Part shown: positions 25,290 to 29,483 of the stretch, one piece after another | Layout: the number at the start of each line of letters is the position of its first letter | Position numbering within the stretch: position 1 is the first letter of the stretch | IMG/VR virus record: IMGVR_UViG_3300007229_000042 | Coordinates: 1-32,334 of that record | Origin: a virus | DNA length: 32,334 nt | Strand: one strand, 5' to 3' | Made by a program: the position numbers and the translations under genes | The notes under the pieces: generated by a model | Seen by the model: the letters and a program-made list of their open reading frames with translations, nothing else | Told to the model about the DNA's origin: nothing | The model's database searches: none

Positions 25290-25348
25290 AATCCTCCCGC
25301 GCCCCTGCGCGACAAAGACCAAAGGTCATTAGGATAAAAAGAGATTGA

Positions 25349-25377
25349 GGCCGTCGGTTAATTCCGGCGGTCTTTTT
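25349..25377 (+). terminator. Rho-independent terminator after the small-gene cluster
   Basis: GGCCGTCGG (25349-25357) pairs with CCGGCGGTC (25364-25372), with two G-T pairs and a TTAATT loop, and is followed by five T (25373-25377). It isolates the next promoter. Confidence 0.85.
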
Positions 25378-25397: not shown

Positions 25398-25426
25398 TTG
25401 ACACATCTTTCGTTGTGTCTTATACG
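25398..25426 (+). promoter_or_regulatory. Sigma70-like promoter with internal inverted repeat
   Basis: A perfect -35 box TTGACA (25398-25403) lies 17 bases before TATACG (25421-25426; 4 of 6 to TATAAT), about 25 nt upstream of the CobS-like start codon. GACACA (25400-25405) and TGTGTC (25414-25419) form an inverted repeat between the boxes, a likely repressor site. The position directly after a terminator supports a new transcript starting here. Confidence 0.65.
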
Positions 25427-25450: not shown

Positions 25451-27007
25451 ATGTCAGTTATCACAATTCAAAACATCATCGACAACAACTCAACCAAAGA
25501 CGCACAGCGCATCTTGCGCAAGGTCATCGAGGCGCAGTTGCGCAACTGTGACACCTCTGCCCTCGTAGAAGCTGCCCGCAACAGCGAGCTAATCAACGGC
25601 GGTGCACCCGGATCAAAGAAGATCGCGAGCGTTACGTTCAACCAAATCCTTGACCGCATGACGACCGATGCGCTGGTAATGTTTATCAACATGGAGGCCA
25701 CCAATTCGTGCTCTGGTTTGGAATTTACTCAGACCTGTTTCGAGGCAGCGGATGAATACGCAGACAACAAAGAGACGTGGCCCTATTTCAGACAATCCAG
25801 AGCACTCACTCAGACAGACCTAGACATCACACAGTATGTCAACGTCGATCCAGTAGCGGAGCCGACACCACCCGCATCGAGCCATGGCGTAGCGTTCAAC
25901 GACGACATGCTCAACATCGCCAATATGGCAATGGACAAGGCAACCTTTGGCAAGGTGACGAACATCGCCACGGTGCTCGAGGAGCTGGAGGAGCTGCGCA
26001 ATCGCCCAGCTACGACGGCAGTAGCACCGCAGCCAGTGCAAGCGAGCGGTGACATTCCAGACGGCAAGCCAGTGCGGATGAATGCGCAGGACGTGTTTAA
26101 CCTCAAGGACAAGCTGCTCGACTTCGAGATCACCGCATACGATTGGGATGGCATCAACCCGCTTGTGCCCAGCATCATGCAGTATTTCAAGTTCGACATA
26201 GATGCGCTGGCGGATTTGCTGTGGGCTCGTGAGAAGAACAAGAACGCATGGCTGGTTGGTCACACAGGTACAGGTAAATCTACTCTCGTAGAACAAGTAT
26301 GTGCCTACACCCGCACCATGTTCCAGCGCGTCAACTTCGACAGTGACATCACCCGTCTTGAGTTCGTGGGCAAGGTCGATGTGACGACGGACGACGATGG
26401 CAACCAAGTGACCACGTTTACGGATGGCATATTGCCCACTGCAATGCAGATGCCTTGCGTCCTGATGCTCGATGAAGCGGATGCGATCCGAGGCGACATT
26501 GCATATGTGTTGCAGCCCGTGCTCGAGGGCAAGTCTCTGCGTCTGCTCGAGGATGCAGGTCGTATGGTTCACCCGCACCCAGAGTTCACGATTGTAGCTA
26601 CGGCTAACACGGCAGGGTCAGGCGATACGACTGGTATGTATAGCGCTGCCGTCAAGATGCAGTCAGCAGCAGCAATGAACCGATACAACGTATTCATCAA
26701 CGTGGACTACATGGCGGTCGATGATGAAATGCAGGTCATCAAGTCGATGGTGCCCACGTTGAGCAAGACTATCGAGCAAAAGCTGGGGTCGTTCATCACC
26801 TACTACCGCAACGCGATCCGCATCGGTGAAGTGACCAAGCCCATATCACCACGAAACACCATCACGATTGCTCAGTATGCGAACGATTTCGAGGATCGTT
26901 TGGGCCATGCGGCTGCGTTCCAACGTGCACTCGAGCGCAACCTCTTCAACGCGATGGATGAAGGCGAACGTGCCATCGCAATCGGTATCGCAGACCGCAA
27001 CAGCTAA
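25451..27007 (+). CDS. cobS: CobS-like AAA+ ATPase
   Basis: The 518-residue product has a MoxR/CobS-type AAA+ core: Walker A GHTGTGKST (residues 270-278), Walker B VLMLDEAD (337-344) and sensor 1 FTIVATAN (Asn386). The stretch VEQVCAYTRTMFQRVNFDSD, then FTDGILPTAMQ and GSGDTTGMYSAA, follows bacterial CobS (EQVAARLN...VNLDSH, F.DGILPWALQ, GLGDTTGLY, recalled from memory). CobS drives magnesium or cobalt chelation with CobT and CobN, but no CobN is present. About 200 N-terminal residues precede the core, more than in cellular CobS. I chose the ATG at 25451, with AGGAG 7 nt upstream. It is followed 25 nt later by its VWA partner. A remodelling role with that partner is more likely than cobalamin synthesis. 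Confidence 0.85.
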   Translation: MSVITIQNIIDNNSTKDAQRILRKVIEAQLRNCDTSALVEAARNSELINGGAPGSKKIASVTFNQILDRMTTDALVMFINMEATNSCSGLEFTQTCFEAADEYADNKETWPYFRQSRALTQTDLDITQYVNVDPVAEPTPPASSHGVAFNDDMLNIANMAMDKATFGKVTNIATVLEELEELRNRPATTAVAPQPVQASGDIPDGKPVRMNAQDVFNLKDKLLDFEITAYDWDGINPLVPSIMQYFKFDIDALADLLWAREKNKNAWLVGHTGTGKSTLVEQVCAYTRTMFQRVNFDSDITRLEFVGKVDVTTDDDGNQVTTFTDGILPTAMQMPCVLMLDEADAIRGDIAYVLQPVLEGKSLRLLEDAGRMVHPHPEFTIVATANTAGSGDTTGMYSAAVKMQSAAAMNRYNVFINVDYMAVDDEMQVIKSMVPTLSKTIEQKLGSFITYYRNAIRIGEVTKPISPRNTITIAQYANDFEDRLGHAAAFQRALERNLFNAMDEGERAIAIGIADRNS

Positions 27008-27032
27008 TCAATCACATTCACAGGAGATACTT

Positions 27033-28901
27033 ATGTTTAAGAACAACAACCCACATGCTCTACAGAAAGAGCTCGACGGACTGAGCAAGGTCATGGGTCG
27101 TAGCGATGTGCGCACCACCTTCCAGGGCGACGGCGCTTACACCGACGGCAAGACCATCAACATCCCAGCGATGAAGCTGGACGCACAGCTAACCGACAAG
27201 GAGATGGAAGCCCTGCGGGGCTACCACATCCACGAGGTCGCCCACGTTACCGATACAGACAGCGATCTATGGCAGAGCAAGCGCACCACCAAGCGCAAGC
27301 GTCACACATGGAACGCCATGGAGGACGTTTTCATCGAGCGTAAGGCGCAGGGGAAATTCAGCGGCGCCCGTAAGAGCTTGCAGTCAACCGTCGATACAGT
27401 GCTCGAGCGTGAGAATGCAATCGACCGTGAGACAGTCGAGGCTGGCGGCGATCCATATGAGAACTGGCCCGATCAGATAGACTACGCTGCGTTGCAGTTA
27501 GCCCGTCAACGTATGGGCTACGACAGCCCAGCGCTCGACGAGTATGTGAACAACCTGCCCAAAGAGCTACGCAAGGAAGCCGAGAAGTTTGTGGACGCAG
27601 CCTTAGAAGCCGACAGCACAGAGGAGACGTTCAAGCTGGCCGGCAAGATTGCATCCCGCATGAAGAAGCTGGGTCAACAATTCAGCAACGACGATGACGA
27701 GCAGCAGCAGCAACAGCAACAGCAGAAAGCTCAATCTGGGGGCGATGAGGAAGGTCAGCAAGGCGACGATGGCAGTGGGTCAGGCGACGATGGCGACAAG
27801 GGCGATGGCAAGGGCTCAGGCAATGGGCCCAAGGGAGACGATGACAGCAAGCCCGCGACCAGCGGTGCTGACCGTATGGAAAGGGCTGGCGACGTAGCGT
27901 CTCAAATCGCAGGTGCCCACAAGTATGACGACAACAACCGCATGGAGCGCAGGACTGCGCTCACGTTCAAGAGCTACGAGGACTACTTCGAGTACCTCAG
28001 AATTGAGTGCGAGAAAAGCCCGCTGGTAGGCGACAAGGTTTTCAAAGCGTTTAGCTACTACGCATTCCCAGAACGCAGTAGAAAGTACGCAGACCTTCTC
28101 GAGCGTCTCGCCGAGGATACGACAGCGCGATCATCTGGGGCACGGCTTGCCCGCTTGTTGCTTGCCCGTGAGGAGAAGCGCATCATCGGTGGTCAGTTGG
28201 CTGGTCGTGTTGACAGGCGTAGGCTGGCGCAGTTGGTTGCCGGTCAACGCAATGTCTTCACCCACCAAGAGGCGATGCGTACCGACGACACCATCGTGAC
28301 GGTGGCCGTAGATGCAAGTGCATCCATGAGGCAGGGGCTTACCCGCAAGGCAACGGCGGCGCTTAACGAGTGCTTGGGTCGAGCGAATTGTACCTACGAG
28401 ATACTCACTTGGACAGGTTACAGCAACTCGCCGTATGATTTCACTTGGGGATGCAAGGGGCTACAGAAAGGCGAGGCGCCATTCAATACGAACGGATTGG
28501 TCGAGGTTAAGACAGCGGCCCAGCGCAGCGCAGACCCAAAGGTTCGCTGCAACATCGCCAACATGCTCAGTCAGCAGGGCGTTACGCCGACGTTGGCTTG
28601 CCTGACTGGCGTTGCCCATCGAGTTATAAATCATAGCGAAGCACGTCGCATTGTGCTGATGCTTACTGACGGATTGCCCAACGGTGGACGTGAGGAAATA
28701 GCAGAGGTCAAGGATACCGCCGGCAAAATGCGCGAGGCGGGCATCGAATTGATCGGCATCGGTATCGACTGTGATGAAACATACGTCAAGCGTATGTTCG
28801 GAGACAGCAACACCGTCATGTGCGATACGCACCAGCTTGCAACCACCATGTTCAAGCAGCTCGAGACCCTGTTGGTCGGACGTGCGCATGAAGCTGCCTA
28901 A
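27033..28901 (+). CDS. cobT: CobT-like VWA protein with HExxH metallopeptidase-like motif
   Basis: The 622-residue product has a C-terminal von Willebrand A domain with MIDAS DASAS (427-431) and MLTDGLPNG, as in CobT. An acidic low-complexity linker (about residues 220-280, with eight Gln in a row) separates it from an N-terminal region. There, HEVAH (67-71) and AMEDVFIE (Glu97/Asp98, Glu102) form an HExxH zinc-peptidase-like arrangement. The start at 27033 has AGGAGA 6 nt upstream. It is the second gene after the CobS-like ATPase and overlaps the following gene by 14 nt. MoxR/VWA pairs act as chaperone or protease-like machines. The zinc motif suggests a protease role (inference). No CobN subunit is visible. 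Confidence 0.82.
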   Translation: MFKNNNPHALQKELDGLSKVMGRSDVRTTFQGDGAYTDGKTINIPAMKLDAQLTDKEMEALRGYHIHEVAHVTDTDSDLWQSKRTTKRKRHTWNAMEDVFIERKAQGKFSGARKSLQSTVDTVLERENAIDRETVEAGGDPYENWPDQIDYAALQLARQRMGYDSPALDEYVNNLPKELRKEAEKFVDAALEADSTEETFKLAGKIASRMKKLGQQFSNDDDEQQQQQQQQKAQSGGDEEGQQGDDGSGSGDDGDKGDGKGSGNGPKGDDDSKPATSGADRMERAGDVASQIAGAHKYDDNNRMERRTALTFKSYEDYFEYLRIECEKSPLVGDKVFKAFSYYAFPERSRKYADLLERLAEDTTARSSGARLARLLLAREEKRIIGGQLAGRVDRRRLAQLVAGQRNVFTHQEAMRTDDTIVTVAVDASASMRQGLTRKATAALNECLGRANCTYEILTWTGYSNSPYDFTWGCKGLQKGEAPFNTNGLVEVKTAAQRSADPKVRCNIANMLSQQGVTPTLACLTGVAHRVINHSEARRIVLMLTDGLPNGGREEIAEVKDTAGKMREAGIELIGIGIDCDETYVKRMFGDSNTVMCDTHQLATTMFKQLETLLVGRAHEAA

Positions 28902-29094
28902 GTTCGACCCACACATGAAGCCCACAGTGCGACAGGATTGGGTGCGTCTGCATGAGTACAGACGCAGCCCGTTCTGGTGGTACGTCGGATGCGTCGTTCG
29001 CATAAAGCGCATCAAGCACAAGGACGTGGACAAGATCAAAGAAGTCTGCCGCGCCCTTGATGAACAGTTCCCACAACTAAGCGAAAGGAAGTGA
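28888..29094 (+). CDS. Small basic hypothetical protein
   Basis: The 68-residue product starts MKLPKFDPHMKPTVRQDW and contains SPFWWYVGCVVRIKRIKHKDVDKIKEV, a short hydrophobic patch followed by basic residues, too short for a standard membrane helix. The ATG at 28888 is in frame inside the end of the VWA gene, giving a 14-nt overlap. No clear ribosome-binding site was seen. It precedes the endolysin gene by 2 nt. No family was recognised. Confidence 0.55.
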   Translation: MKLPKFDPHMKPTVRQDWVRLHEYRRSPFWWYVGCVVRIKRIKHKDVDKIKEVCRALDEQFPQLSERK

Positions 29095-29096
29095 CG

Positions 29097-29483
29097 ATGG
29101 CAATCGGAGCAGCAGTCATATGCTTGGCACTCAACATATATTTTGAAGCAAGATCGGAGGAACCAATGGGGCAGTTGGCCGTAGCAGAGGTGACGCTTAA
29201 CCGCGTTACGAGCAGCCGTTACCCGGACACTGTGTGCGAGGTAGTTTGGCAGAGAAAGCAATTTTCGTGGACGCACGACGGAAAGAGCGACGTGCCCAAG
29301 GATGCAAGGGCTTGGGACATGGCGGTGAGAGCAGCGAAGCTGGCGATGAAACACAGAGACGTGGTGATCGTAGGCAATGAGGTCACACATTATCACGCCG
29401 ATTACGTCAAACCATATTGGACGACGGCATATGAGCGCGTCGCCAAGGTGGGCACACATATTTTTTATAAAGCGAAAGGATGA
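29097..29483 (+). CDS. Endolysin-type cell-wall hydrolase (SleB / Hydrolase_2 family)
   Basis: The 128-residue product is a single PF07486-type domain: CLALNIYFEARSEE (Glu17 is the likely catalytic acid), QLAVAEVTLNRV, YPDTVCEVVWQRKQFSW and THYHADYVKPYW, ending in VGTHIFY. These match the usual order of the SleB/CwlJ family, which cleaves peptidoglycan glycan strands. There is no signal peptide, so it should need a holin. None was recognised next to it. I chose the ATG at 29097, with AAGGA 7 nt upstream, over a GTG six bases earlier whose ribosome-binding site would be too close. It is most likely the phage lysin. Confidence 0.88.
   Translation: MAIGAAVICLALNIYFEARSEEPMGQLAVAEVTLNRVTSSRYPDTVCEVVWQRKQFSWTHDGKSDVPKDARAWDMAVRAAKLAMKHRDVVIVGNEVTHYHADYVKPYWTTAYERVAKVGTHIFYKAKG

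Follow-up and report, generated by a model that had tools for sequence, protein, structure and literature searches.

The 32,334-nucleotide IMG/VR record IMGVR_UViG_3300007229_000042, a phage fragment of 32 kb that is hereafter, as a whole, called the window, raises the question of what a phage does with a pair of genes resembling those of the cobaltochelatase subunits CobS and CobT. Phage cobS (and cobT) has been widely reported as a B12 auxiliary metabolic gene. Our analysis leads us to propose instead that the products probably form an ATP-driven MoxR-VWA protein-remodelling machine, the VWA subunit of which carries an N-terminal gluzincin-type zinc-metallopeptidase domain, and that they do not act as a cobaltochelatase. 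An earlier note, made from the letters of the sequence, had described the pair, the CobS motifs of the ATPase, the metal-ion-dependent adhesion site (MIDAS) DASAS, the HEVAH motif and an EDVFIE segment, and all of these were confirmed in the two open reading frames (ORFs). The features concerned are as follows.

25451-27007, + strand: gene for a CobS-clade (MoxR) AAA+ ATPase of 518 residues (matches to Pfam AAA_5, phrog_249, PD_CobS and solved CobS)
26258-26281, + strand: Walker A motif GHTGTGKS (residues 270-277); G270, G273, G275 and K276 invariant in alignment A5
26471-26482, + strand: Walker B motif DEAD (residues 341-344); D341, E342 and D344 invariant in alignment A5
27033-28901, + strand: gene for a CobT-like protein of 622 residues (Pfam CobT and CobT_C; AlphaFold2 models)
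27231-27245, + strand: HEVAH (residues 67-71), with putative zinc ligands H67 and H71 and putative catalytic E68, from motif conservation
27312-27338, + strand: NAMEDVFIE (residues 94-102), pattern N94-x-x-E97-D98; E97/D98 invariant, candidate third metal ligand
27696-27932, + strand: acidic low-complexity linker (residues 222-300), mostly predicted to be disordered (predicted local distance difference test, pLDDT, falling from 54 to 36 across most of its length in the AlphaFold2 model of the whole protein)
28311-28325, + strand: MIDAS DASAS (residues 427-431) of the VWA domain; D427, S429 and S431 present in 70/70 CobS-anchored partners

The first ORF matches Pfam AAA_5 (E = 1.4e-19), phrog_249 (1.2e-52) and a solved CobS (PDB code 9ujv; 4.7e-41), with the AAA domain at about residues 235-510; a Pfam search gave no match for the N-terminal ∼230 residues. 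Its score against the TIGR01650 PD_CobS model (2e-46, 158.7 bits) lies below the CobS equivalog cut-off of 558.6, and by this measure the ATPase is CobS-like and no CobS equivalog. The second ORF matches Pfam CobT (2e-11) and CobT_C (7e-9) and comprises an HExxH domain (about residues 1-217), the acidic linker and a VWA domain with its MIDAS. The AAA_5 and VWA/CobT_C matches, the Walker motifs and the MIDAS in the partner place the pair among the MoxR-VWA systems.

Our proposal draws first on the conservation of the putative active site. The sample was drawn by a CobS-anchored scan with no selection for HExxH and comprised 80 loci, 70 of which had a VWA partner, with 65 of these covering the N-terminal domain; loci from sub-alignment scans, which used peptides around HExxH and are motif-biased, were excluded from the conservation evidence. 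H67, E68, H71 and E97 are kept together in 64 of the 65 full-length viral partners, the exception reading HEVAR, while E68, E97 and D98 are each present in 65/65 and E102 in 63/65. E97 and D98 also belong to the invariant set of alignment A6, although A6, like A7 (both of which were supplied to AlphaFold2), had been filtered for HExxH. The residues singled out in the earlier note thus stood in part: His67, Glu68, His71 and the MIDAS are kept, while among the acidic residues it is E97 and D98, rather than Glu102, for which no replacement occurs. A set of 15 relatives, identified through sequence similarity or neighbouring genes and too divergent as an alignment for searching viral contigs, retains E97, E102 and the MIDAS throughout. 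HExxH is present in 12 of them, the exceptions being hairong (SEIAK), ANB28 (REVST) and Atep, which lacks the region as annotated. Since the alignment columns of HExxH, E97 and D98 stay conserved even between relatives that have diverged strongly, the HExxH of the window protein is, judged by alignment, no chance occurrence. The domain is also present in the VWA proteins of many tailed viruses, haloarchaeal ones included.

Chelatase CobT presents a different picture. A Pfam CobT search of 299 Pseudomonadota genomes separated strong matches (E = 1e-42 to 1e-103) clearly from the weaker remainder; the hidden Markov model alignment dropped the N-terminal domain of 29 of the 35 strong-match chromosomal chelatase CobTs, for which reason a sequence pattern was used to read the motif. 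Locus L212, for which the alignment reported HEHE but with extra residues interrupting the motif, was left out of the HExxH count. HExxH was found at the N-domain position in none of the 35, which mostly read RGxADSxALKLxCHD in its place; the window protein departs from this signature and reads RGYHIHEVAHVTDTD. Where the second motif of chelatase CobT could be read, E97 and E102 are kept and D98 is lost. Solved CobT, which can be aligned to the phage profile over its whole length (E = 7.6e-67), shows this pattern too, with DSMALR at the HExxH position (N-terminal domain, 21vu_H), and the weaker CobT matches in Pseudomonadota carry HExxH in four of 11 cases. In these alignments HExxH accordingly characterizes the mobile-element family, and the form without it is chelatase CobT. 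Because the motif is general in the former and absent from the latter, loss in CobT appears more likely than gain in the phage, and the description of the motif in the earlier note as an addition has to be turned round. We did not find it stated in the literature searched that chelatase CobT carries this domain with a lost site. Chromosomal CobS/CobT-like pairs without HExxH also occur in Pseudomonadota (loci L205-L209 and L215); those of L205-L208 have a CobS that clusters with the chelatase form.

The AlphaFold2 model of the N-terminal domain (pLDDT 96, predicted template modelling score 0.91) places HExxH in a helix spanning residues 55-74 and the ED pair in the next helix, residues 87-108. 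The best seven VIA structure matches are all zincins, with weak Z scores of 6.3 to 4.0 that lie below the safe level of the tool: two entries of BepA, the zinc-dependent peptidase 3c37, abylysin, two M61/aminopeptidase-type structures and ArdC. HExxH peptidases or their relatives account for 16 of the 50 VIA rows, which are realigned Foldseek candidates. The model therefore suggests a gluzincin-type fold, in which E97/D98 (with the nearly invariant E102), on the helix after the HExxH helix, would be the candidate third metal ligand. The M48/minigluzincin metallopeptidases (BepA, 3c37 and abylysin) share HExxH and are the top solved-structure matches of the model, but the scores are weak (Z 4.5-6.3), there is no sequence match and the third ligand of the phage protein is a candidate. 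A profile match of A6 to AcrIIA26 (PDB 9zq6_B, 47 residues, E = 4e-5) covers the NxxED region without the HExxH part and was set aside as probably due to chance.

By analogy with chelatase CobS/CobT and other MoxR-VWA systems, the CobS-like ATPase would form a ring on which the CobT-like subunit docks, and the MIDAS of the VWA domain, as elsewhere in the family, may grip an acidic residue or peptide of the target or of the ATPase itself. ATP hydrolysis could then swing the VWA domain over the flexible acidic linker, presenting or unfolding the target, which the conserved HExxH...ED site, holding one metal ion, would cut. The machine would be used early or in the replication phase, its target being a protein of the host or one associated with replication and not a virion component, a part of the scheme that we hold less firmly.

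Several observations weigh against this proposal. The peptidase function is predicted from the conserved site and the modelled fold; the Z scores supporting the zincin fold are all below 8, a search of the PDB with Foldseek alone gave nothing significant for the N-terminal domain (E > 0.4) and Pfam assigns this domain to CobT alone, with no peptidase family. A few viral copies have lost HExxH (hairong SEIAK, ANB28 REVST and L135 HEVAR), and some motif-less viral versions thus work, or decay, without it. The window pair, moreover, adjoins a terminase and a lysis gene, not replication genes. Three broken-HExxH viral copies (L014, 3436-5514; L015, 3679-5664; L135) retain an intact MIDAS and are possibly natural inactive versions, to judge from their residues.

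The location beside the terminase bears on the first alternative, that the pair serves virion assembly or maturation, the MoxR-VWA proteins remodelling virion proteins and the metallopeptidase head trimming them. Such a role has been proposed by Iyer et al. (2021, PMC7824862) for jumbo phages in which a MoxR ATPase is paired with a vWA protein bearing a metallopeptidase domain at its N-terminus, so that the idea of a different use for such a pair is already known. The window shares this arrangement, a MoxR-clade AAA+ ATPase gene adjacent to that of a metallopeptidase-headed VWA protein in a phage genome; the likeness to the proteins cited there (ASV44728/9) is one of architecture, and those are from jumbo phages, whereas the window derives from a marine phage of the CRP-810 type. 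This assignment follows from its identity to its closest known relative, Roseobacter phage CRP-810 (complete at 57.7 kb), in capsid (73%), portal (71%) and terminase (TerL, 59%). In the window the pair sits between the terminase and a SleB-like lysis gene, and it is close beside the terminase in close relatives as well.

Elsewhere, however, the pair keeps mainly the company of replication and recombination genes. Among the neighbours in the CobS-anchored loci, 18 of 84 ORFs are of DNA polymerase III type and six encode other polymerases, together with ligases and primases, and few are structural; cyanophage pairs are located among gp44/45/46/47 (genes for the clamp, the clamp loader and recombination), and those on plasmids and the island are accompanied by ssb, bet or exonuclease genes. 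The pair also diverges far faster than the virion genes, CobT and CobS of the window sharing 22% and 40% identity with those of CRP-810 against 73% for the capsid, and AAA-DUF3150-VWA sets of a similar kind are carried by plasmids and by an island of conjugative type. These neighbourhoods and the fast divergence favour, indirectly, a host-facing or early role, and we consider an assembly function unlikely. In the tree, CRP-810 CobS groups with the CobS of one Cobavirinae phage and not with that of the window, which suggests exchange of the pair between phage families. The plasmids and the island (loci L011, L013, L019 and L174) carry their AAA/VWA genes with a DUF3150 gene or recombination genes, and in the haloarchaeal virus HCTV-5 a SprT-like gene (L171, 2582-3244) lies near the AAA/VWA pair.

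The second alternative is the one implied by the gene names: viral CobS and CobT would join a host CobN to form a cobaltochelatase, an auxiliary metabolic gene function raising cobalamin supply, as has been argued for viral CobST (PMC8651126). The relation is real, since chelatase CobS-CobT (PDB codes 9uka, 21vu and 21vt; TIGR01650, PF06213 and PF11775) shares the two-gene architecture and is homologous end to end, N-terminal domain, linker and VWA domain with MIDAS included; the proposal is published, and some Cobavirinae-type carriers encode a B12-dependent ribonucleotide reductase (RNR). Chelatase CobT, however, lacks both the HExxH that is kept in the viral proteins and D98, and it needs CobN, while the window ATPase falls far below the CobS cut-off. 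As the earlier note had stated, no CobN was found in the 32 kb window, nor was one found in 25 related records including complete CRP-810, in which cobS and cobT are gp06 and gp07 and CobN is not annotated. CobN was also absent from 60/60 Enterobacteriaceae genomes (some of them reduced) and from 60/61 Vibrionaceae genomes. Both families host such pairs, so hijacking of a host CobN cannot be general, although it may occur in hosts with CobN, and the host of the window may be one of them. B12-dependent RNR above cut-off was found solely in four Cobavirinae-type records, with none in CRP-810 or in ten contigs of 53-59 kb with related pairs.

We therefore regard a chelatase function as very unlikely; the window pair is probably no cobaltochelatase and the 'B12 gene' label probably wrong for hundreds of phages. 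The suggestion of the earlier note that a MoxR-VWA pair with a metallopeptidase-type head has a role other than cobalt chelation is upheld by motif conservation and the absence of CobN, as far as sequences can speak to function. Most pairs reported as auxiliary B12 genes carry an intact peptidase-type site, some of their hosts offer no CobN to serve and at least 500 phage records (509 with a CobS match) are affected in their annotation. The function of cobS in phages has itself been called uncertain in the description of CRP-810, which reports the pair in almost all phages of that family (PMC11288001). A confusion of names was encountered here: the CRP-810 paper (gp07; L002, 3693-5645) and the annotation of Escherichia phage Cyrano (hit H7) equate cobaltochelatase CobT with the unrelated lower-ligand-activating CobT, dimethylbenzimidazole phosphoribosyltransferase.

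The remaining alternative, that the HExxH domain is a metal-binding structural or binding head on a machine that remodels its target without proteolysis, fits the use of the same domain without the motif by chelatase CobT and the loss of the motif in some viral copies, but we judge it the least probable, because the catalytic glutamate E68 is never replaced in the CobS-anchored set, which goes beyond the need of a purely structural zinc site and which a metal-only or structural role leaves unexplained. The question of function becomes directly testable in laboratory phages through this one glutamate.

The distribution of HExxH also bears on the origin of the chelatase. In a tree rooted with CbbQ, chelatase CobS and the chromosomal sequences closely related to it make up a single clade nested within the lineages whose partners carry HExxH (supports of 98/93 and 99/94 at the forks). 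An approximately unbiased test did not reject a topology that unites all HExxH-partnered pairs in one clade (p = 0.08), and as this alternative is retained the tree is suggestive only. We offer, tentatively and as somewhat less than an even prospect, the hypothesis that chelatase CobS-CobT descends from a mobile-element AAA+/VWA metallopeptidase machine, CobT being an inactivated peptidase and phage 'cobST' the active, older form rather than stolen B12 genes. If true, this would explain the origin of a B12 enzyme.

The metallopeptidase-type interpretation is supported and extended here to CRP-810-type phages, phage-plasmids and others. Cyanophages carry a 'peptidase' and cobS (T4-like GC 146 and GC 150; 463 phage records) with HExxH, NxxED and MIDAS and with cobS nearby; unlike in the window, the VWA gene precedes cobS, from which one to a few genes separate it, and the sequence is very distant. 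SSU5-type phage-plasmids encode a 'porphyrin biosynthesis' pair that likewise combines an HExxH-VWA protein with an AAA+ ATPase, in a host family without CobN; it differs from the window pair in its order, CobT-CobS, in lying beside DNA polymerase III alpha and in an ATPase with an N-terminal C2H2-like motif. A common N-terminal C-x-x-C...H...H motif occurs in the ATPases of SSU5-like and similar pairs (L012, 6836-8035; L015, 5671-6855; L014, 5608-6855; L004, 9205-10440), with weak Pfam matches to ROS_MUCR or C2H2, and could aim the SSU5-like machine at DNA. PADLOC gave weak defence-system matches for the ATPase and none for the CobT-like proteins.

Upstream of the pair in the window are two further features.

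25347-25374, + strand: terminator-like hairpin followed by a U-run, directly 5' of the pair (folding energy -19 kcal/mol, z = -4.8 against shuffles)
25398-25426, + strand: promoter-like TTGACA-17-TATACG, the sole TTGACA-N15-19-TATA match in the window

An operator-like inverted repeat, GACACA (25400-25405) and TGTGTC (25414-25419), lies between the promoter hexamers. The hairpin and the promoter-like site make it plausible, from the letters, that the pair has its own transcription unit, as the earlier note had claimed in assigning it its own promoter; that claim is weakened in that a stricter consensus promoter scan did not list the site at 25398-25424 and at least one such match also occurs in 13% of shuffles. 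Downstream of the pair and on the same strand, the SleB-like endolysin gene occupies positions 29091-29483 of the window.

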